Of a DNA stretch of 64,000 nt, positions 28,856-44,297 are shown in pieces. This DNA is from Oscillospiraceae bacterium (GTDB taxonomy: Bacteria; Bacillota; Clostridia; Oscillospirales; Oscillospiraceae): contig JAFPWF010000024.1 of the NCBI GenBank assembly GCA_017395085.1, forward strand, positions 1 through 64,000, read 5' to 3'. A program made the position numbers and the translations under genes. Under the pieces are notes generated by a model that saw nothing but the letters and a program-made list of their open reading frames with translations, was not told the DNA's origin and made no database searches. Position 1 is the first letter of the stretch. The number at the start of each line of letters is the position of its first letter.

Positions 28856-29048
28856 GGTAATTCCCTTCCTTTAAAGAACCAGATACCCGATACTATACAA
28901 TATTTTCAGAAAAGTCAAGTTCAAGCAGGCGCAATCCGTGTGACACGCTGCCTGCCAAAATAACAGTCCAAAAAACAACATCCAAATTAATCAGTATACT
29001 GGAAGCGAATACTAAATGACTATTGCCCAGCGACCATCAAATCGACAC

Positions 29049-29077
29049 TTGTTTTGGTTTAGCAGATCATGTATACT
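29049..29077 (+). promoter_or_regulatory. Possible promoter of the kinase-STAND gene
   Basis: TTGTTT (29049-29054) and TATACT (29072-29077) are separated by 17 bases. The predicted start site is only about a dozen bases before ATG 29097, close to its ribosome site. A second TATACT at 28995-29000 could give a longer leader. Confidence 0.4.
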
Positions 29078-29096
29078 GACGAAAGGATTACGAAAG

Positions 29097-32000
29097 ATGG
29101 GATATTGTATGGAAAAGCGCATTTATCCGGAACATACTGCCATTACCCTGTATGAAATCGTTAATGGGAAAAAGCAGTATTCGCGGATCTTTATCCTGGA
29201 AAAATGCATAGGAACCGGTGCAGGATGTGTTGCATACCAGGCGACGGAAGAGAACGGAATTCCCGTCCGATTAAAACAGTTCCGTCCAATTGGTATGGAG
29301 CAGCATAGCAACCTGTATCGGATGTCGGAAGAGCGCTTCCTCAATGCCTATAGTCAGCAACTCGAAATGATGCGGGATGAAAAAACGGCTGCCGTTACTG
29401 CAGGTCTCATTGGTTTATACCGGGATGATGACGGATGGTACTGGACCTCTGTCAACTCCATGATTGGGAAAACACTGGACAGGCTTCTGCCGGAAAACTC
29501 CATCCATAAGAACATCGATATTCTCAGGCGGCTGGCCGAAAGTATCCGGGCATACCATGAGGCCGGCTGGCTTTTACTGGACGTGAAGCCGTCAAATGTT
29601 TTGGTCATTGACAGCCTTGGCCTGAAGGGAATAAACTTCTTTGACTTTGACTCGTTTGTCCGCGTGAGGGATATTCAGGATGCGTTGAGAGAGCATCGGC
29701 AGATCCTCCTGTCCTCCAGTGAGGAGTATTCCGCTCCTGAACTGCTGGAAAGTGAGATTAATCTGGAAGAAGTAGGTCCTGCTGCGGACTTTTTCTCACT
29801 CGGTGCAATTCTTTTTGAAGCTTTGTTTGGAAGGTCGCCTGAACTCTATGATTGTATCCCGGGAAGTGTTTTCACACTGGATCACATCCGGGCAGCCAAC
29901 GGAGGAGAACTGCCAGGAAGCGCAAAAGCACAGATCACAAAATTCCTGCAGCGCACACTTACCTTGTCACCTGAGAGTCGTTATGCAACAGATGAAGAGC
30001 TGCAGACCGCCCTGGATCAAATCCTGCAGCAGACGGAAGCGGCAGGACCGGAGCTTGTTCGCCGTCTGCCAGGCGCTGTCCGGGACTTTTACGGCAGAGA
30101 TCGGGAACTCAAAGAGCTTTGCAGGCTGATCAGGGAAACCGATGAACCAATATTTCTGCATGGCATGGCCGGGGTTGGGAAAACCCAGCTTGCCTTGCGC
30201 GCAGCGACAGAGCTCTCTTCAGAGTATGACTGTTATTACGCAAGCTTCCAAGGAAGTATTCGGAAAACACTTCTTTCCATGCCATTTGAAAATCTCGAAA
30301 GAGAGAAGACTGGAGAGAACGGGGAAAAGACGTCTAAGACGGATGAAGAACTATGGCAGGAGATTTTCCCGGTTTTGAAGAATAGAGATCGTGGCCGCAG
30401 CCTCCTGATCATTGACAATTTCGATGCTCCCAACGATGAAGACACACCGACACTCCGCTATGACCTGGATCTGGCGAAATTGGAAGAACTTCCTTTCCAT
30501 TTGGTGTTCACAACCCGATGCCGTTTTGACGGGGTACAGAATCTCCTCATCGGAAATCTGGAGAACGATGCAGCTTTAGAGATGCTACGCAGCGCCATGC
30601 CGGAAGAATCAAAAGAAGACCTGAATCGACTGGCGGAAGCGGTAGGACGGCATACCCTGACGCTACGCATCCTGACGGATACTGTAAAAGAGAGCAAAGG
30701 ATGTCTGCGGGCAGTAGAGTTGCTAGAAATGCTTGCAAGCAACCGATCATCTTCAGATAAAGACCCGGTTGCTGCAAGACTGCGCGCGGTTTTCCGTGCT
30801 GCGGATATGGGAAAAACAGAACGATCTGTTCTTTCCTGCGCAACGTTATTCCCCCAGGCTGGATTGAGCTCGGATCTTCTGCTCAGACTTTTTTCAAGGG
30901 AGCAGTGGGCAGCCGCCAGCCAACTGGAGCGCTGCGGGTGGCTGCGTTTTGACCCCGTTGGTGGTCTGTGGACGATCCATCCTATTGTCAGGTTCATTTG
31001 TAAGACCGAAAAACAGACCCAAGCAGACTGGGATAATGTCGGGAATTTTGTGACTGAACTCCGCAAGATGAATAACATCGGCGGCTTTGATCAGGCTGGT
31101 CCGGATGAGAGAGCACAGCTGGAGGAGCTGTTCGCTTCCCTGGGCAAGCTGAGTCTTCGCAGAAAGCCGAAGCCTGCACTGCTGGCAGGCATTGCGGCTG
31201 TGCTGGTGACAGTAATTGCCCTGTTGCTGTGGGGCTCCCGGGAAATAGATGACAGCCCTGTTGTTCATATAAAGCTTACACCGCAGTTTTTTGTGACGAA
31301 GGATGTATGGCAGCTAGACAGCGGCATTGTGTTGGAAAGACTGCGCAATATGGGTGCCCGTGACGCGAAGCTGGATGAAGAGACAGGGGTCATTACTGCC
31401 AGCCTGCGAGCGTCCTTTTTCGATGGGGCAGGAGATATGTATGTCGCTGCAGGTGCGCTGAGCGCATACCCGGGCAAACTCTGCGTGATTGGGACTACCG
31501 GCTTTCAAGACACCTGTTTGGAGATTGAGCGTGAGAGCATACTGGACGCACATATGGAGTATGGCAGTGTTCCGGGGCTCAGCAGGGAAAAGCGTAAGGA
31601 TATCGGTCTTGGGGAAAACACGGAATATGCATGGGTTTCTCTGACAGTAGATTCTGAAACACAGAGGGAAATCCTTGCACTTGCTGCGGCAAATGATAAG
31701 ATCTATTTTAAAACAGATGTTGACCCGGAGTATATCCTTCTGACTGGGCATGCAGGTTTCGGAGCGGTACCGGGCATAACAGAAAACACCTGGTATATGC
31801 TGGATGGTTCCTGGTGCCAGAAAAACCTGTGTGCTGCATTTGCGGAACTTTTCAAGATGGAAGCGCTGTCGGAAGAATACGATTTCGAACTTGAACTGGA
31901 GCCAGCTGCCATGTGGCAGAATCCAAAAGTAATGCCACCCGAAGTTCTTGGCGAAAACCAGTGCAGCATCGATGACCTTTCCGGTGACCTTGCAGTATTG

Positions 32001-32675
32001 TTTTACAGGCCCTCTATTACTTCTAACGGAGATATCATCTCTGATGTAGTGTTTCAGGAAGTTCTCTCCAGTTTTCGGGACCGGTTGGATTGCTTTGGGC
32101 TCCCTTATGCTCTGGGAACAGGCTTCTATAAAGAACGCGAGATTGCGGTTTGTATCTCGACAAAACGGCTCAACCGGGAAATCGCAGTAAACGTGCTGCC
32201 GGCGAACAGACTTTTGATTACGAGTTCTGCCAAAGCAGCAGATGAGGCTATCCTCAATACGGGTAGCGCTTTCTGGGATGATCTGCAGGCGGAAGTGGTG
32301 AAACTGGAAGACGGATACTACGGCCTGCAGCTGTCAGCGCCTGACTTCGAATACGTAGAGTTCCTGTTGCAGGCTGCAGAAGAAGAAATAGCTAAAGCGG
32401 GAGGCGGGGCATTGTACCTGTGCGAGGGCACATATTCCTATCTTGACTTGGCGACAAAGGTGGATACAGTAGCTGGCGAAAGGATTCTCTTTACCTCTTC
32501 GCCCCGGTTAGGCGTTGAACGTTTTGGAGAAAATGAGAAGTTCCTGCTGGATCTATTCGCAGAACTGATCAATTCCGAAGCAGAGCTAACATCGGAAATT
32601 CCGGTTAATTACAGTCTGGCACAACATGCATCCTACACGATTAACGATGCAGAATTAGGATTTAATCCAGGATAA
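29097..32675 (+). CDS. Kinase-STAND NTPase transmembrane receptor-like protein
   Basis: This is a 1192-residue fusion. Residues 28-310 form a Ser/Thr-kinase-like domain: glycine loop IGTGAG (38-43), Lys60, catalytic loop LLLDVKPSN (Asp162, Lys164, Asn167), DFD in place of DFG (183-185) and SAPE (212-215). Residues 332-640 form a STAND/NB-ARC-like module: Walker A GMAGVGKT (356-363), Walker B SLLIIDNFD, sensor FTTR (471-474) and a winged helix (570-636). One span lies at 693-712, then about 480 outer residues that I read as two SecD-P1-like modules (inference). ATG 29097 has AAAGGA 9 bases before; ATG 29109 is an alternative. I infer a membrane signalling receptor; substrate and ligand are unknown. 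Confidence 0.75.
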   Translation: MGYCMEKRIYPEHTAITLYEIVNGKKQYSRIFILEKCIGTGAGCVAYQATEENGIPVRLKQFRPIGMEQHSNLYRMSEERFLNAYSQQLEMMRDEKTAAVTAGLIGLYRDDDGWYWTSVNSMIGKTLDRLLPENSIHKNIDILRRLAESIRAYHEAGWLLLDVKPSNVLVIDSLGLKGINFFDFDSFVRVRDIQDALREHRQILLSSSEEYSAPELLESEINLEEVGPAADFFSLGAILFEALFGRSPELYDCIPGSVFTLDHIRAANGGELPGSAKAQITKFLQRTLTLSPESRYATDEELQTALDQILQQTEAAGPELVRRLPGAVRDFYGRDRELKELCRLIRETDEPIFLHGMAGVGKTQLALRAATELSSEYDCYYASFQGSIRKTLLSMPFENLEREKTGENGEKTSKTDEELWQEIFPVLKNRDRGRSLLIIDNFDAPNDEDTPTLRYDLDLAKLEELPFHLVFTTRCRFDGVQNLLIGNLENDAALEMLRSAMPEESKEDLNRLAEAVGRHTLTLRILTDTVKESKGCLRAVELLEMLASNRSSSDKDPVAARLRAVFRAADMGKTERSVLSCATLFPQAGLSSDLLLRLFSREQWAAASQLERCGWLRFDPVGGLWTIHPIVRFICKTEKQTQADWDNVGNFVTELRKMNNIGGFDQAGPDERAQLEELFASLGKLSLRRKPKPALLAGIAAVLVTVIALLLWGSREIDDSPVVHIKLTPQFFVTKDVWQLDSGIVLERLRNMGARDAKLDEETGVITASLRASFFDGAGDMYVAAGALSAYPGKLCVIGTTGFQDTCLEIERESILDAHMEYGSVPGLSREKRKDIGLGENTEYAWVSLTVDSETQREILALAAANDKIYFKTDVDPEYILLTGHAGFGAVPGITENTWYMLDGSWCQKNLCAAFAELFKMEALSEEYDFELELEPAAMWQNPKVMPPEVLGENQCSIDDLSGDLAVLFYRPSITSNGDIISDVVFQEVLSSFRDRLDCFGLPYALGTGFYKEREIAVCISTKRLNREIAVNVLPANRLLITSSAKAADEAILNTGSAFWDDLQAEVVKLEDGYYGLQLSAPDFEYVEFLLQAAEEEIAKAGGGALYLCEGTYSYLDLATKVDTVAGERILFTSSPRLGVERFGENEKFLLDLFAELINSEAELTSEIPVNYSLAQHASYTINDAELGFNPG

Positions 32676-32715: not shown

Positions 32716-34422
32716 ATGGCTTATGGACCGCTGACAAATGGGCATATCGGCAGAATCTCACGAGGAGAGATTTACTCGGAAGCAGGAGAGTGGCATCCGG
32801 ATGCTTTTACACTGCCATTTCCGGAGCGTCTGGTGGAGTTTGTAGAGACGTATTTTGACATGCTTCCGGCTGATTTGGTTGAACGGAAGGCTGCCTTGGC
32901 TGCCATAATCAACAATGGTGCAGCGGCACATGGTGTAAAACTGGCAAGAAGCACCCTGAACGAATGGCTAATCGGCGGGCGCGACCCCAGCGTCAGCAGC
33001 AGCGACAGCCAGACCAGGGAAAACATTTATCGGTTGTGTGCGGCACTTGATCTGGACATGGAACTGACAGAAGAACTGTTTGAAAAGGTTTTTTTCGCCA
33101 GGGCTTTCGACCTGAAAGTTCTGAAAGAGTTTGCATTTTTTTTCTTTGCCAGAAGGGATTACAACAATGGTGTGGAAGGCTGCCAATGGTATGCGGCCGG
33201 TGAAAAAATCTGGGAAGATGTCGGGAAAACAGCCCTGTCGGGAGATGCCGACGCGGAACCACCCATCCGGAACACGGTTCTTCTGGCCGACAGGACTGCT
33301 GTGATGAATGAGTTGGAGTTTCTGGGCTTCCTCTCCAGCCATCAGGACACCTTTCTCCGGGAAAACCGCTTTGCCAGAGCAAGAGAGCGTATCAGAGAAT
33401 ACTCCCGCAAAATCTGTCAGTTCACACTGGAACTGCGGCAGGAACAGGCAGGGGAAGAGATCCCGTATGAGCCGTTGATTAACCACATCCTGGGATATTC
33501 CCAGCGAAGCAGTTCAGGTGCTGTGGGTACGATTTCATCACTGAAGTCGTTACCGCCTCAGCTGATCACCAATTTCCCCACGGGGCAGATTCTCCGCAAA
33601 ATCTGTATCGGAGATACCTGCAGTTATGACCAGATCTACAAAATGTACAGCCTTCTGCTGTTTTTCTTTTACCACGCCAACCTTCTGCCGACTGAAAATA
33701 TAGAACAGCGCTTCGGGGCCTTTCTGCGCTTCTCGAACCTGAGCCTGGAGCACGAGGGCTGCACTGAACTCTATCCGCGTCAGCCGTACGGTGGTCTTCT
33801 GCTCTTCTGTGCTGCACAGGATGACCCGATACTCGCTCTGCAGGACTTTATTGAAACAGCGGTTGCCAAAGAGTCAGAAGCTGTCCTGATGGATCGATTC
33901 AGGGAGATTCCAAATCTGTCGGAAGAATGCTGCCGCGCACTGATCCGCTGTGCGGAGCGGGACCCCTTCCTTGTAAGCCTGATAGCAGGGACGATGAACC
34001 GAGCTTCCTGCACGCTGAAACCGGATGAATTGATCCATGCGAAATATTATGAAGACCGTGCTGCGGAAATCATCCAGTTGCTCTATTCTGCTGCAGGCTT
34101 TTCACCGGAGGAAAAAAGCGTATTGGAGTGCGGTGCTTTGCTTCCTCCGGACGGAGTTTCAGATGGGCTTTTCCGGCGTTTGCTCTCGGTAAATGACATT
34201 GCCGCTGCGCAGGCACTGACACTGTGCGGATGGCTGTACTGTGCAAAAGACATGTGGAGCATGGACTACCGCATCCGTACAGTTGTTGCCGGGCAAGAAG
34301 TTGCAGGGAATAACGCCCGGAAAATCCTGGACAATGCTGTCAGGCTTGCAGAGGAGAAGTTTCCAAGCAAAGAAACATCACAGTTGAAAAAACTGCTAAA
34401 ACAGAGAAAAAGCCTGCTGTAA
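32716..34422 (+). CDS. Soluble partner with degenerate STAND C-terminal half
   Basis: This is a 568-residue protein of no named family, 40 bases behind the kinase-STAND gene. Residues 70-130 hold an HTH-like pattern (ARSTLNEWLIGGRDPS, RENIYRLCAALDLD). The middle is helical. About residues 395-530 align by eye with the ARC2/winged-helix part of the upstream protein: SVLECGALLPPDGVSDGLFR against SVLSCATLFPQAGLSSDLLL, both running on to CGWL. No Walker A motif is present, so it should not hydrolyse ATP alone. There is no signal or span. ATG 32716 is used because of GGAG before it; the frame is open from a TTG at 32677. I infer a regulator or effector that assembles with the kinase-STAND receptor. 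Confidence 0.65.
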   Translation: MAYGPLTNGHIGRISRGEIYSEAGEWHPDAFTLPFPERLVEFVETYFDMLPADLVERKAALAAIINNGAAAHGVKLARSTLNEWLIGGRDPSVSSSDSQTRENIYRLCAALDLDMELTEELFEKVFFARAFDLKVLKEFAFFFFARRDYNNGVEGCQWYAAGEKIWEDVGKTALSGDADAEPPIRNTVLLADRTAVMNELEFLGFLSSHQDTFLRENRFARARERIREYSRKICQFTLELRQEQAGEEIPYEPLINHILGYSQRSSSGAVGTISSLKSLPPQLITNFPTGQILRKICIGDTCSYDQIYKMYSLLLFFFYHANLLPTENIEQRFGAFLRFSNLSLEHEGCTELYPRQPYGGLLLFCAAQDDPILALQDFIETAVAKESEAVLMDRFREIPNLSEECCRALIRCAERDPFLVSLIAGTMNRASCTLKPDELIHAKYYEDRAAEIIQLLYSAAGFSPEEKSVLECGALLPPDGVSDGLFRRLLSVNDIAAAQALTLCGWLYCAKDMWSMDYRIRTVVAGQEVAGNNARKILDNAVRLAEEKFPSKETSQLKKLLKQRKSLL

Positions 34423-34472
34423 CGACGTTTGAATAAAGGCAGACTCCTGCCCGCGAAAATAACAACAGAATT

Positions 34473-34553
34473 AACCCTCCCGGATCCAGCCGGTTTACAC
34501 TCTGGGTGTAAACAATCATTCTTTGAATGAACACAGCTTGATTCGGGAGGGTT
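34473..34553 (+). terminator. Branched terminator-like structure
   Basis: A 10-bp outer stem (34473-34482 with 34544-34553, AACCCTCCCG) encloses two hairpins, GTTTACAC/GTGTAAAC (34493-34513) and TCATT/AATGA (34516-34530), giving a three-way junction with a T tail. It ends the kinase-STAND pair. The remainder of the 230-base gap shows nothing else clear. Confidence 0.55.
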
Positions 34554-34652
34554 TTCAATTTGTCCAGCGGAAGCGGCGATAAACTGTGACTGCAATGGAA
34601 AAACAGAAAACTGATGCCTGTATCTGGAAGCAGCATTTGAAAGGAGAATACC

Positions 34653-36638
34653 ATGAAAAGAATAACAATGATCTCAATTGCATTGACCATTTTATTCCTG
34701 TTAATGGCAACGGCATTACCACATTCTGCATATGCGCAGGGAAATATGGAATATGAATTCGCATTTGCTGTTCATTCCATCAACGATGATCAATACATTC
34801 GCCATGTAGGGCCGGACCTTTCAGCAGATACGCTTTATGGCAATGAATATTATGTCCTCTATCTGACCATTCACAACAACAGCGGAAAAGTCCAGAATTA
34901 TTCCAAAGCAGTGCTTTCTGTAGATGACCATTCCTATACCTGGGAGGATCTGACGGTTAACAAAGCGTTTAGTTTGCGCTTGAGTCGTGATGCAATGAAA
35001 ATGATTTCAGCCGGAAAGCATGTATGCACCCTGCAGCTGGACGGAAATCTTGTTCATTCAAACACCTTTGTAATGCAGCGAGACTGGGGAAGCCTGATGA
35101 AGCTCCCCACGCAGGAACAGATTAACCGTTATAACCCAGAAGGTCAGCGTTCCCCTTATATTTCATTCCGTACCGGATTTGGGAGCTGCGGCGGTTACAC
35201 GGAATACTCTGTTGATGTTCATACAGACCACTTGCCTTATGGTACCTATTTGTGCTCGATAGACTGGTGGATGGATTTAAGTTCACTTGAAAAAAACTAC
35301 ACGAAAGTATGGGCAGATTACGGCGGCGCAGGAGGAGGGTACTGCGGCCTGCAGGTCTGGGATGACGGCACGAGAGGCGTGATCATGACTCTGTGGGATA
35401 CGTTCTGCGAGGATCAGTTCGGGAATGTCAGTCAAATCAAGGCAAAAGTCCTCTACCCAGAAAATGCCGCAGATACAGATCACAATAACAGCAGCGAAGG
35501 AAGCTTTGTTCACTACAGTTACCCATATGACTGGAAGGCAGGAAAAGGCTATCGTTTCCTTCTGCAGCAATCAAACGGAAACAACGGAAATGTGCTGATG
35601 ACACTTTGGATAGGCGATATTGAAGCAGGAGCCTGGACGAAGCTATTCTGCTTTGATACAGGAATTCAGGACATTTGGATCAGAAGCACTGGAGGATTCC
35701 TCGAGAACTACATAGTAAAAACCTCCGGAGAAGTTCGCACCATGGAATTTCGAAATATTCGTGCGCGCATGAGGAACAGCGGCCGGTGGGAAGACGCAGA
35801 ATCGGTTACCTACAGTATTAATGCAAGCGTGGGAACCAGCAGTTATCAGGGGAGCTATAACTTTGGACAGGATTCCCGCAGCTGCTGGATCATTACCTCC
35901 GGGATCCCCGGATTAAACCAGCCAAATTCCAATACCGGCCCATATCCGGTTCCCCAGACCAGAGAGTTTATGCCGGAACTGCCAAAAATGACAGAGGAAT
36001 ACACACTTGTTGATCCAGTATCTGCCCCGGCAGCCGAGGAATATCCTAGCGATGAACAGGAGCTGCAAATTGAGGAATGGTGGCTCGAAAATGCGGAACC
36101 TCAGATTGAAGAGGTGAAGCCGGCTGCGGAAGAAAATGATAATTCATGGTGCACATCCGCAGCACCGGAACCGCCTGAAGAATATGATGAGTTTCTCAGA
36201 AGCGGAGATTGGGTGCTGGATCTTGCCTGGGCTGATATGGATTATGAAGATCTGCTTTTCTGGCCGTCCCAATGGTGTGTGTATGATGTGGACAGAAACG
36301 GTACACAGGAACTCATAGTGCAATTCAACGGCTTCTGGCTGATATATACCAGCCGTAACGGGCAGATCCGGCTTGTGAGCACCGGCGCATTAACAAGAGA
36401 TATGGCAGTTTCAGTATGCCCTGAATTGGGTATTGTCCGTTTTGACGGAGGACACACAAGCTGGTCGTTCACCTGCTTTGTCAGGATCATAAATGGGACA
36501 GAGCAGGCTCGCTTTGAACGGGATAAGGAAGACCCGTATTACTTAGGCTTCACCGCTGCCGAAGTGGATCCTTCACTGGAAGGAGCATACTTTCAGCTTG
36601 AGCAAAATGACGTATGCGGCATAGAAATCTATGCCTGA
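34653..36638 (+). CDS. Secreted DUF3472-like protein with acidic linker
   Basis: This 661-residue exported protein has a signal peptide of about 28 residues ending SAYA-Q. A beta-rich N-terminal domain is followed by a region resembling DUF3472 (about 165-330: TEYSVDVHTDHLPYGTYLCS, GGYCGLQVWDDGTRGVIMTL), a fold thought to bind glycans or peptidoglycan surfaces. Residues about 430-515 are acidic and Pro/Glu-rich, a likely unstructured spacer. The last 145 residues form another domain (CVYDVDRNGTQELIVQFNG) that looks like an FG-GAP or calcium-loop type repeat. AAGGAG precedes the ATG. It follows the kinase-STAND pair across a terminator; a functional link is only suggested by position. Confidence 0.7.
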   Translation: MKRITMISIALTILFLLMATALPHSAYAQGNMEYEFAFAVHSINDDQYIRHVGPDLSADTLYGNEYYVLYLTIHNNSGKVQNYSKAVLSVDDHSYTWEDLTVNKAFSLRLSRDAMKMISAGKHVCTLQLDGNLVHSNTFVMQRDWGSLMKLPTQEQINRYNPEGQRSPYISFRTGFGSCGGYTEYSVDVHTDHLPYGTYLCSIDWWMDLSSLEKNYTKVWADYGGAGGGYCGLQVWDDGTRGVIMTLWDTFCEDQFGNVSQIKAKVLYPENAADTDHNNSSEGSFVHYSYPYDWKAGKGYRFLLQQSNGNNGNVLMTLWIGDIEAGAWTKLFCFDTGIQDIWIRSTGGFLENYIVKTSGEVRTMEFRNIRARMRNSGRWEDAESVTYSINASVGTSSYQGSYNFGQDSRSCWIITSGIPGLNQPNSNTGPYPVPQTREFMPELPKMTEEYTLVDPVSAPAAEEYPSDEQELQIEEWWLENAEPQIEEVKPAAEENDNSWCTSAAPEPPEEYDEFLRSGDWVLDLAWADMDYEDLLFWPSQWCVYDVDRNGTQELIVQFNGFWLIYTSRNGQIRLVSTGALTRDMAVSVCPELGIVRFDGGHTSWSFTCFVRIINGTEQARFERDKEDPYYLGFTAAEVDPSLEGAYFQLEQNDVCGIEIYA

Positions 36639-39194: not shown

Positions 39195-39782
39195 ATGAAG
39201 AAGATCTTTATGCGCATGGTAAGTTTGTTCCTAGCAGTCCTGATGGTTTCATCTGTTCCGCAAACCTGTTTTGGTCATTATTATGGTTATGGCGACGAAT
39301 TGGAAGCAGAATGGAAGATTGGCAATCTGGATGGGAACGTATGGCATCCATTTACCAGTGCCTGGGCAAGTTCAACGCTGAAGGAGGGGGACATTATCTT
39401 CCGTGCCGGCTATGCTATCGATAATAAGCAGAAGTATCAGCGACCCTGGGTGGAGGGCGTCCGCGGCAGCGGGATCGGCGAAACACTTACCCTGTATTTT
39501 GATGACGAATACTGTATTGGCGGATTGACGTTCCGCCTCGGTTATGCACGGGATCAGGCCAGATATAACAAAAACAACCGCCCGAGCGAACTGCTGATCT
39601 CGTTTTCTGATGGCAGCTATGTAGACTGCTGGTTTGAGGACATCAATGCGGAACAATCCATCGTGATCCCAGACCTCGTATACACTAACTATGTAGAAAT
39701 CACCATTTTGAATGTCTACTGCGGGACGCAGTGTGACGACACCTGCATTTATCAGGTAAAAGCATACGAGATGGTCGGCTGA
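39195..39782 (+). CDS. Secreted NADase-type glycan-binding (discoidin-like) domain protein
   Basis: This 195-residue exported protein has a signal peptide (MKKIFMRMVSLFLAVLMVSS, cleavage near residue 27). The mature part fits the NADase-type glycan-binding domain named after the translocation domain of streptococcal NADase. Motifs are ASSTL, PWVEGVRGSGIGETLTLYFD, NGY-like RLGYARD, NNRPSELLISFSDGS, and the closing VEITILNVYCGTQCDDTCI. Such domains bind carbohydrates or cell surfaces. It has no catalytic domain, so it is likely a surface or secreted binding protein. GGAGGG ribosome site. Confidence 0.75.
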   Translation: MKKIFMRMVSLFLAVLMVSSVPQTCFGHYYGYGDELEAEWKIGNLDGNVWHPFTSAWASSTLKEGDIIFRAGYAIDNKQKYQRPWVEGVRGSGIGETLTLYFDDEYCIGGLTFRLGYARDQARYNKNNRPSELLISFSDGSYVDCWFEDINAEQSIVIPDLVYTNYVEITILNVYCGTQCDDTCIYQVKAYEMVG

Positions 39783-43001: not shown

Positions 43002-44297
43002 TTATTCTATCGGGGAGAGATACTTTGCACAGAATGGTTTGATCTTCCCCTGATCATACACATGGAGACTGCAGCGGTGCAGCCGCTCGATGTTCAGGTT
43101 CATCGCGTCCTGAAACGCCATGGCCGACAGGGTGAGACTGTTGTGCCGGAGGCGATAAAGAAAGGTGTCAAAATCCATCACATCCGAAAAACTCCCGGTC
43201 AGAACCGGTTCCTCCGGTGCACGCATCCAGTGCCGCGCTACGTATTCCCGGTTGTCCTTTTCACATCCGTGGCGGTGTGAGGAATGGGTGATGGAACTCA
43301 GCGGCTTCAGTCTGCCGTCCGGTTCGATCAGAAAACTTGCGTGAAAGCCGCAAAGCGGATGGTCACAGCGCGAGGGCATAAAGCACTCAATCGGGATCTG
43401 TGCCTGCTCGCCGATATCCGCCATCAGCTGGTCCAGGGTATAGCGGTCGTCCTCTCCAGGTGCTTCGGGATACCGCCCGAAAAAGGATACCGGCTGGAAA
43501 TGGATCCCTCTGACGCCGGGAGCCAGAGACACGGCAAGCGAGATAATCTCGCCGAGGTTTTCGTCATTGACGCCTCTGACCACGGTCGGCACGAGCGTTA
43601 CGCCGAGCTTTTGCTCCGCACAGACGCGGATTGCCTCCAGCTTGGTTTCCAACAGCGGCACGCCGCGCAGGACTTCATAGATTTCATCGCGGGTCCCGTC
43701 GAACTGCAGAAAGACGATATCCAGACCGGCTTCGGCAAGCTGCCGGGCATAGTCCGGATCCTTCGCCAGACGAATTCCGTTGGTATTCACCTGGGTATAG
43801 CTGCATCCGGCTTCTTTGGCAAAACGGATCAGTTCGGGCAGGTCGTTCCGCAGAGTGGGTTCACCGCCCGAGAACTGAAGCAGCGGCTGTCCGCACAGGC
43901 GGACGATATCCAGGATCGCATCCTTCAGTTCCTGCACGGAGGGGTCGCAGTCCTCGCTTCCGCCGTTTGCAAAGCAGTAGCGGCAGCGCAGGTTGCAGCG
44001 GTTTGTGACTTCAAGCAGTGCGCAGCAGGTGCCGATTTCGTGCTCGGCGCAGATCCCGCAGTTTCCCGGACAGGAAAGCCCGCAATCCGGCGGAAGCGAC
44101 TCTGTTCCCAGCAGCCACTCTTCAAAATTCACTCTTCCCTGCCAGACGGGCACCCGGAAGTCCCCGTGCACCGGGCAGGTTTTTTCCAGAAGGATCCGTC
44201 CGCCGTCTTCCCGCATCAGGCGCGCTGGGATGTTCTTCAGGCAGACGGGACAGACGGAGCGGGTTTCGCGGATCGGTTCAGCCACGGCAGTACTCAT
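43002..44297 (-). CDS. Radical SAM protein of the Tes/TrsS-like group
   Basis: This is a 431-residue radical SAM enzyme. The 4Fe-4S motif is CNLRCRYCFA (C101, C105, C108), with the SAM-binding FSGGEPTLR and VNTNGIRLA strands. The N-terminal rubredoxin-like part SVCPVC with KTCPVHGD (15-45) and the CGLSCPGNCGIC segment are features of the family that includes archaeal tetraether synthase (Tes) and bacterial TrsS. The C-terminus is Cys/His-bearing (SSHRHGCEKDN). The ATG overlaps the dnaE stop (ATGA), so it is translated with dnaE. A lipid or small-molecule C-C coupling role is possible but unproven. Confidence 0.8.
   Translation of the reverse strand: MSTAVAEPIRETRSVCPVCLKNIPARLMREDGGRILLEKTCPVHGDFRVPVWQGRVNFEEWLLGTESLPPDCGLSCPGNCGICAEHEIGTCCALLEVTNRCNLRCRYCFANGGSEDCDPSVQELKDAILDIVRLCGQPLLQFSGGEPTLRNDLPELIRFAKEAGCSYTQVNTNGIRLAKDPDYARQLAEAGLDIVFLQFDGTRDEIYEVLRGVPLLETKLEAIRVCAEQKLGVTLVPTVVRGVNDENLGEIISLAVSLAPGVRGIHFQPVSFFGRYPEAPGEDDRYTLDQLMADIGEQAQIPIECFMPSRCDHPLCGFHASFLIEPDGRLKPLSSITHSSHRHGCEKDNREYVARHWMRAPEEPVLTGSFSDVMDFDTFLYRLRHNSLTLSAMAFQDAMNLNIERLHRCSLHVYDQGKIKPFCAKYLSPIE

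Follow-up and report, generated by a model that had tools for sequence, protein, structure and literature searches.

What does a bacterial gene do that joins a protein kinase, a STAND NTPase, a membrane span and a large outer domain on one chain? We analysed such a gene in a 64,000-nucleotide stretch of DNA (the window) from a gut-type bacterium, Oscillospiraceae bacterium (contig JAFPWF010000024.1 of assembly GCA_017395085.1). The receptor gene, as we call it, lies in the open reading frame 29016-32675 (+), and its likeliest start, ATG 29097, gives a protein of 1192 residues. The original prediction, made from the letters of the window, had placed all four parts on one chain; Pfam and motif searches found them where it had put them, with the span at residues 695-713 rather than 693-712. 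It had missed a second gene, the partner, which in its core has diverged less than the receptor. As judged from sequence comparisons, the two genes form a genuine kinase-NB-ARC system that is conserved as a pair and has one membrane-bound variant.

The N-terminal region belongs to the kinase fold, as had been proposed for residues 28-310. Pfam Pkinase matched residues 35-303 above the Pfam cut-off (E 3.7e-12), and the hallmarks of a Hanks-type Ser/Thr kinase were found by Pfam and alignment, namely the fold, the VAIK lysine, the catalytic aspartate and asparagine, and the metal-binding aspartate. The catalytic loop DVKPSN occupies residues 162-167 (Asp162, Lys164, Asn167), and the motif DFDS at 183-186 has DFD in place of DFG. 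PknA and PknB were the top solved relatives of the inner part of the receptor, among the best 60 of 148. Nine kinase-STAND loci were aligned: those of the window, G447a and G447b (two genes of genome G447), G484, G446, G486, G360, G196 and Ruminococcus albus. The VAIK lysine, the catalytic aspartate and asparagine, the metal-binding aspartate and the Walker A motif are kept in all nine. The catalytic lysine is present in seven loci and lost in G360 and G196; DFD occurs in seven, with DCD in G360 and DFG in G196. On this alignment, DFD is a family trait and not decay, and the receptor kinase is apparently active. The kinase fold could instead be a pseudokinase-like adaptor, with STAND assembly alone acting. 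Such a scaffold would suit the altered DFG motif and the two lost lysines, and disrupted catalytic residues are described for most kinase domains of vWA-type conflict systems by Kaur et al. (PMC7159879). However, the residues retained across the alignment, including the catalytic lysine in most loci, argue against a scaffold, and we consider it quite improbable.

The region after the kinase matched Pfam AAA_16 (E 2.5e-9) and NB-ARC (E 2.8e-6; 27.2 bits against a cut-off of 23.5), and both matches passed. AAA_16 outscored NB-ARC in the window receptor, and NB-ARC was not listed by Pfam for G447a, G484, G360 and G196 at the limits applied. Walker A (GMAGVGKT) was located at residues 356-363 and Walker B (LLIIDN) at 436-441. 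In the winged-helix part, IHP (627-629) occupies the place of the NB-ARC "MHD" motif, where eight of the nine loci, the window included, have a histidine. The receptor thus carries the Walker A and B motifs, the ARC region, the winged helix and the MHD-like motif of the NB-ARC/AP-ATPase clade, the type of ATP switch found in immune receptors of plants and animals. G196 had no Pfam STAND match at E<=0.01, yet it matched a STAND profile built without it at E 4.8e-31. A hydrophobic stretch follows at residues 695-713, with a hydropathy peak of 2.71 over residues 691-717. Because LRRKPK immediately precedes this span, the kinase and STAND modules should be inside the cell by the positive-inside rule, with about 480 residues outside.

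G447 (55% identity over residues 1-1189) and G484 (43% over 5-1173) each have a full-length orthologue in which the domain order is kept, so the join is neither a chance nor an assembly fusion, which was the doubt raised in the original prediction. The window's own genome has one receptor copy. Among 101 genomes of the host genus, many of the searched genomes being incomplete assemblies, six matched the receptor at E<=1e-12 (the window, G447, G484, G446, G486 and G389); five of these hold a kinase-STAND gene, and G389 matched in the STAND part alone. Further kinase-STAND relatives in the genus were the second G447 gene, G446 and G486. Six of 400 family genomes matched at E<=1e-20, comprising the window, G196 and G360 (kinase-STAND) and G389, G314 and G285 (STAND part alone). 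One of 72,556 plasmid records matched at E<=1e-10, namely Ruminococcus albus 7 pRUMAL01, and genome-contig scans found no receptor relative. The stretches around the STAND-only relatives G314, G285 and G389 had no partner profile match.

By the nine-locus comparison, the kinase-STAND fusion is a family with variable C-termini, of which the span with the outer domain is one variant, found in the window, G447a and G484. The other six loci lack a span at the corresponding place. TPR repeats were found at the C-termini of G486, G196 and, weakly, R. albus (E 0.0037), and BspA-type LRR in G360; the C-termini of G446 and G447b had no named Pfam domain. The span peak was 2.71 in the window, 2.93 in G447a and a modest 1.79 in G484. 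The G484 span was accepted from its alignment position, since G447b and G446 have peaks of 1.81 (residues 830-852) and 1.75 (490-512) elsewhere; a second G484 peak (1.61) lies within the kinase.

The partner gene begins 40 bases past the receptor stop, preceded by GGAGAGA; modelling and searches used numbering from TTG 32677 (581 residues). The partner had no Pfam match at E<=1. In its predicted structure, the N-terminal helix-turn-helix may resemble the phage CI repressor, and the C-terminal arm matches the winged-helix arm fold of CED-4, APAF-1 and NLRs (VIA, 580 chains aligned). This arm is homologous to the ARC/winged-helix region of the receptor itself (E 1.6e-9). It is present in all three partners of outer-domain receptors and absent from the five other aligned partners; a tree of arm segments did not place it firmly.

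With the window partner as sole query, BLAST and tblastn found a homologue adjoining the kinase-STAND gene in seven of the eight other loci. Identity was 64-69% in G447a and G484 and 22-26% in the remaining loci. When a small set of window proteins was searched, the matches in G360, G446, G447b and G486 had expectation values no higher than 4e-7; R. albus reached 2e-8 in the search of all plasmids, and G360 reached 9e-6 genome-wide. Separate receptor and partner searches of the plasmids reached neighbouring genes of R. albus, and the gene upstream of the G196 receptor matched a profile of the other partners weakly (E 6e-4). A single-sequence search of the 400 family genomes recovered G360 as the one partner besides the window's; a match in G314 was rejected as the STAND arm of G314 itself. 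The partner lies downstream of the receptor in two loci (window, G447a), is divergent from it in three (G484, G447b, G446) and lies upstream of it in four (G486, G360, R. albus, G196); adjacency was kept despite this varied gene order. Receptor and partner distances were correlated over eight loci (r 0.93, Mantel p 0.0008); without the two close orthologues, r was 0.74 (22 of 720). Downstream of the partner, a hairpin of -42.5 kcal/mol (z -7.06; 0 of 200 shuffles equally stable), of which the consensus scan lists an inner hairpin alone, marks the probable end of the two-gene unit.

We then compared the parts of the two proteins among the three membrane-bound loci. Identities to G447a and G484, respectively, were 62 and 58% for the kinase, 59 and 48% for the nucleotide-binding domain, 64 and 46% for the ARC/winged-helix region, and 43 and 28% and 49 and 29% for the first and second outer halves. 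For the partner, they were 75 and 81% in the N-terminal part, 69 and 73% in the middle and 48 and 56% in the arm. In the comparison of nonsynonymous with synonymous rates (dN/dS), synonymous sites were saturated and dN alone was usable. A fastest-changing sensor together with a slowest-changing partner core is the pattern expected if a receptor has a conserved output.

The outer domain had no Pfam family at E<=10 when scanned separately; matches of its second half alone to Mtd_N and Get5_C (E about 0.2) were taken as chance. It is possibly SecD-P1-like. SecDF (5xan) was the second Foldseek hit, with a VIA alignment of 159 residues, from a low-confidence model and with weak statistics, and the order of strands and helices was judged by eye. 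No Pfam SecD match was obtained, and the domain comes without the transporter part that accompanies the periplasmic P1 of SecD. SecD/SecF (PF02355) was not found in nine of nine host-genus genomes including the window's, several of them incomplete assemblies, and was present in three of four genomes that represent other families within the order.

The outer domain was found in 3 of 102 genus genomes. Matches in G053, G212 and G293 were dropped for stops within all three matching frames, the G053 and G212 loci being ABC-transporter/response-regulator genes. Genome-contig scans yielded a single relative of the outer domain, in the G280 record. Two kinases are encoded in G280 (Pfam E 1.1e-30 and 6e-21); they have hydrophobic spans, as judged by eye, and outer parts related to the window's over about 100 residues. 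The first outer part matched that of the window at E 5e-8 in a two-sequence comparison and 2.7e-4 genome-wide, and the second matched a profile of the window and the first G280 kinase at E 3.7e-8. Neither kinase had a STAND profile match, and a weak partner relative lies downstream of them (E 1.2e-5). The two genes (L025:4775-6484 and L034:917-3304, in an uncultured Oscillospiraceae genome) are probably neighbours across a contig break.

These relatives bear on the possibility that the receptor is an envelope or wall monitor akin to the PASTA kinases PrkC and PknB, in which STAND tunes clustering only, the outer domain senses the state of the wall or of secretion, and many substrates are phosphorylated. 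The receptor shares the N-terminal kinase, single span and outer sensor of PASTA kinases, but it has no PASTA outside, carries a STAND module between kinase and span, and is rare in its genus. The STAND-less G280 kinases with a related outer domain and the lead of PknA and PknB among solved kinase relatives speak for such a monitor, and the possible resemblance to SecD-P1 hints that secreted polypeptides are contacted. However, a dedicated partner with an NLR arm would be left unexplained, and the rarity of the kinase-STAND system also tells against it. Pfam gave no PASTA match in the receptor, though it finds the host's own PASTA kinase (L015, PASTA E 1.2e-26), and NF033483 scored 32 bits against a cut-off of 450. 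Because the host already has its own PASTA kinase, we lowered our estimate for a wall monitor and regard it as improbable.

Relatives of the partner point to a similar setting. Its family profile matched 8 of 102 genus genomes and 3 of 65 genomes of the order, the window being counted in both, with five new genomes (G454, G301, G415, G525 and G515). The G454 match was rejected as a 65-residue frame with a stop, in a stretch where neither partner nor kinase was found. In G301, G415 and G525, Pfam-confirmed Ser/Thr kinases without STAND lie in the stretch of the partner relative; in G515, no kinase was found in 19 kb. A kinase-profile match in L069 (14186-15202) was discarded for want of a Pfam match at E<=0.001. 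In L072 (G525), two Ser/Thr kinases and a trypsin-FHA protein are encoded a few kb away from the partner relative. Because STAND-less kinases accompany both partner relatives (G301, G415, G525) and related outer domains (G280), the partner and the outer domain both seem to be part of a wider set of kinase receptors, to which the STAND module was added.

We also compared the pair with known systems. A 2021 eLife article (PMC8195603) describes predicted conflict proteins with S/T/Y kinase, STAND and FGS on one chain, the NTPase being NACHT, MNS or nSTAND1, and bears out the statement in the original prediction that kinases joined to STAND are known. These proteins resemble the receptor in their N-terminal kinase, central STAND and C-terminal sensor. 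They differ in their lectin-fold FGS sensor, whereas here the NTPase is of the NB-ARC type, the sensors are of other kinds, and a span and a dedicated partner are present. The kinase-STAND-sensor fusion is thus already known, and the NB-ARC type, the span with the outer domain and the partner are the part for which the searches found no description. The original prediction had also held that no protein of this form is known to be described; the membrane-bound NB-ARC form and its partner were indeed not found in the open-licence literature searched, but the fusion itself is the family of nine loci described above. AfsR of Streptomyces is a regulator with a DNA-binding-type domain, NB-ARC and TPR (PMC1262709), and the AfsK/AfsR pathway combines a kinase, an NB-ARC switch and a DNA-binding-type domain, as here. 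However, AfsR has its own NB-ARC and a separate kinase, an arrangement not found here: kinase and NTPase share one chain, and the helix-turn-helix partner retains the winged-helix arm alone, its helix-turn-helix being possibly CI-repressor-like. CED-4, APAF-1 and plant NLRs share the AP-ATPase class, whereas the present system is bacterial and membrane-anchored, with a kinase effector and a second arm on an NTPase-less partner.

The pair may alternatively serve in anti-phage immunity. In this reading the receptor is a bacterial NLR: its variable C-terminus (TPR, LRR or outer domain) would recognise an invader, its kinase would act as an effector that poisons or arrests the cell, and the partner would be a regulator or co-effector. 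The plan of effector, STAND and variable C-terminal sensor is that of NLRs and, as described in PMC10907252 and PMC12169576, of the antiviral STANDs Avs and bNACHT, but the receptor has a kinase and not a nuclease, an NB-ARC-type and not a NACHT NTPase, a span with an outer sensor, and a dedicated partner. On pRUMAL01 (L049), a PIN/PHD toxin-antitoxin pair lies upstream of the two genes and BrxL, ThiF and Mov34 genes lie downstream, as immunity would favour. The same holds for the fast divergence of the sensor and for the patchy distribution of the kinase-STAND gene and of the outer domain, counted in part on incomplete genomes. Also in favour of immunity, apart from the pair no window open reading frame between 26 and 45 kb is matched by a full homologue in the G484 stretch, and a single one, of the NADase_transloc type, is so matched in the G447a stretch. 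However, around the window copy and the two orthologues, no defence gene was recognised among the neighbours scanned with Pfam (15 window open reading frames besides the pair, 5 of 15 others in L044 and, in L045, 5 of 10); many of these neighbours lacked a Pfam match. None of 50,697 phage records matched the receptor at E<=1e-10, and an extracellular sensor would meet phage at attachment only. PADLOC matches of the receptors are mainly to kinase-domain models: the best 25 of 31 for the window receptor were all kinase models except STAND_TPR (E 1.1e-4, residues 328-378), and no catalogued Avs or bNACHT model matched it over its length. In relatives, PDC-S27 (4.7e-8, G486) and mad8 (6.3e-4, G360) each covered part of STAND. 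We consider immunity the main rival reading and possible, though clearly short of probable.

The best-supported mechanism is that of a membrane-bound two-gene NLR/STAND-type receptor system with output through the partner, which we put forward tentatively, as falling somewhat below an even balance. From the domains, the conserved pair, the common arm and the divergence pattern, all read from sequence or structure prediction, we infer its further elements, which are a ligand, ATP switching, co-assembly, the partner as substrate and DNA binding. The outer domain (residues 714-1192) would receive a surface signal, which would cross the single span and cause the NB-ARC ATP switch to open and oligomerise. 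Receptor and partner would assemble through their matching winged-helix arms, bringing kinase domains together, and the kinase would phosphorylate the partner. The output, which would most likely be altered transcription, would be carried by the predicted N-terminal repressor-like helix-turn-helix of the partner. The receptor model of the original prediction was reasonable in treating the protein as a receptor, and its path from outer signal to STAND assembly and kinase output may be right in the same conditional sense. The published kinase-STAND-FGS proteins speak for immunity instead: in those conflict systems, S/T/Y kinases are among the effectors at the N-terminus (PMC8195603), and because such conflict proteins are in print, we lowered our estimate for this mechanism and raised that for immunity. 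A more specific proposal is a bacterial cell-surface NLR in which the outer sensor drives an apoptosome-like mixed ring of receptor and NTPase-less partner arm, and kinases activated there signal to a repressor-type protein; we rate it as rather unlikely.

Table 1. Positions of the receptor-partner unit and its parts in the window
Feature	Positions	Strand	Basis
Receptor gene (1192 residues), encoding kinase, NB-ARC/STAND, winged helix, one span and outer domain	29097..32675	+	Open reading frame, Pfam, full-length orthologues in two genomes
Promoter-like TTGTTT-N17-TATACT upstream of ATG 29097	29049..29077	+	By-eye comparison
Kinase domain, residues 28-318	29178..30050	+	Pfam Pkinase, nine-locus motif alignment, solved relatives
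STAND (NB-ARC class) nucleotide-binding domain, residues 328-500	30078..30596	+	Pfam AAA_16 and NB-ARC; motifs
ARC/winged-helix region, residues 501-665	30597..31091	+	Nine-locus alignment; homologous to partner arm
Single membrane span, residues about 693-713, LRRKPK just before	31173..31235	+	Hydropathy, sequence
Outer domain, residues 714-1192, which may be a tandem of two alpha/beta halves (718-950 and 951-1192)	31236..32672	+	Low-confidence model, Foldseek/VIA, profile comparison with shuffles
Partner gene, 568 residues from ATG 32716	32716..34422	+	Sequence; homologues beside receptor in related loci
Predicted repressor-like helix-turn-helix of partner, model residues 46-140	32812..33096	+	Predicted structure
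Predicted NLR/apoptosome-type arm of partner, without NTPase, model residues 440-580	33994..34416	+	Predicted structure
Strong hairpin followed by TTTT, 3' of partner gene	34468..34556	+	Fold energy against shuffles

The promoter-like element was absent from the consensus scan and is a putative element. Similar CTTGTTTT ... TATA[CG]T elements were seen by eye ahead of the first gene in G447a and, in G484, ahead of the divergent partner gene; a palindrome common to the promoters was sought and none was seen. The window copy looks chromosomal, because dnaE, whiA, rapZ and murB lie 10-16 kb away. Directly after the two-gene unit, a DUF3472 protein with a signal-like N-terminus is encoded (34653-36638), with no homologue in the stretches around the receptor orthologues. 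The NADase_transloc-type F5/8 domain protein at 39195-39782 has a 64% homologue in L044, at a distance of about 5 kb from the receptor orthologue there, and a radical SAM protein with an HMPTM-type zinc ribbon is encoded at 43002-44297 (-). Near the kinase-STAND pair of G446 (L047), we observed a UvrD/RQC helicase, an AAA (lid 6) protein and a weak vWA match.

The best-known NLRs and bacterial STAND defences are mostly cytosolic, and their usual outputs are nuclease, TIR or protease. If the proposed mechanism is true, receptor-kinase and NLR logic would be joined in one bacterial system, which would provide a small two-gene model for outer sensing driving STAND assembly. The Ruminococcus albus 7 pair, a form without the span, sits in a named, sequenced strain, which makes the family testable.

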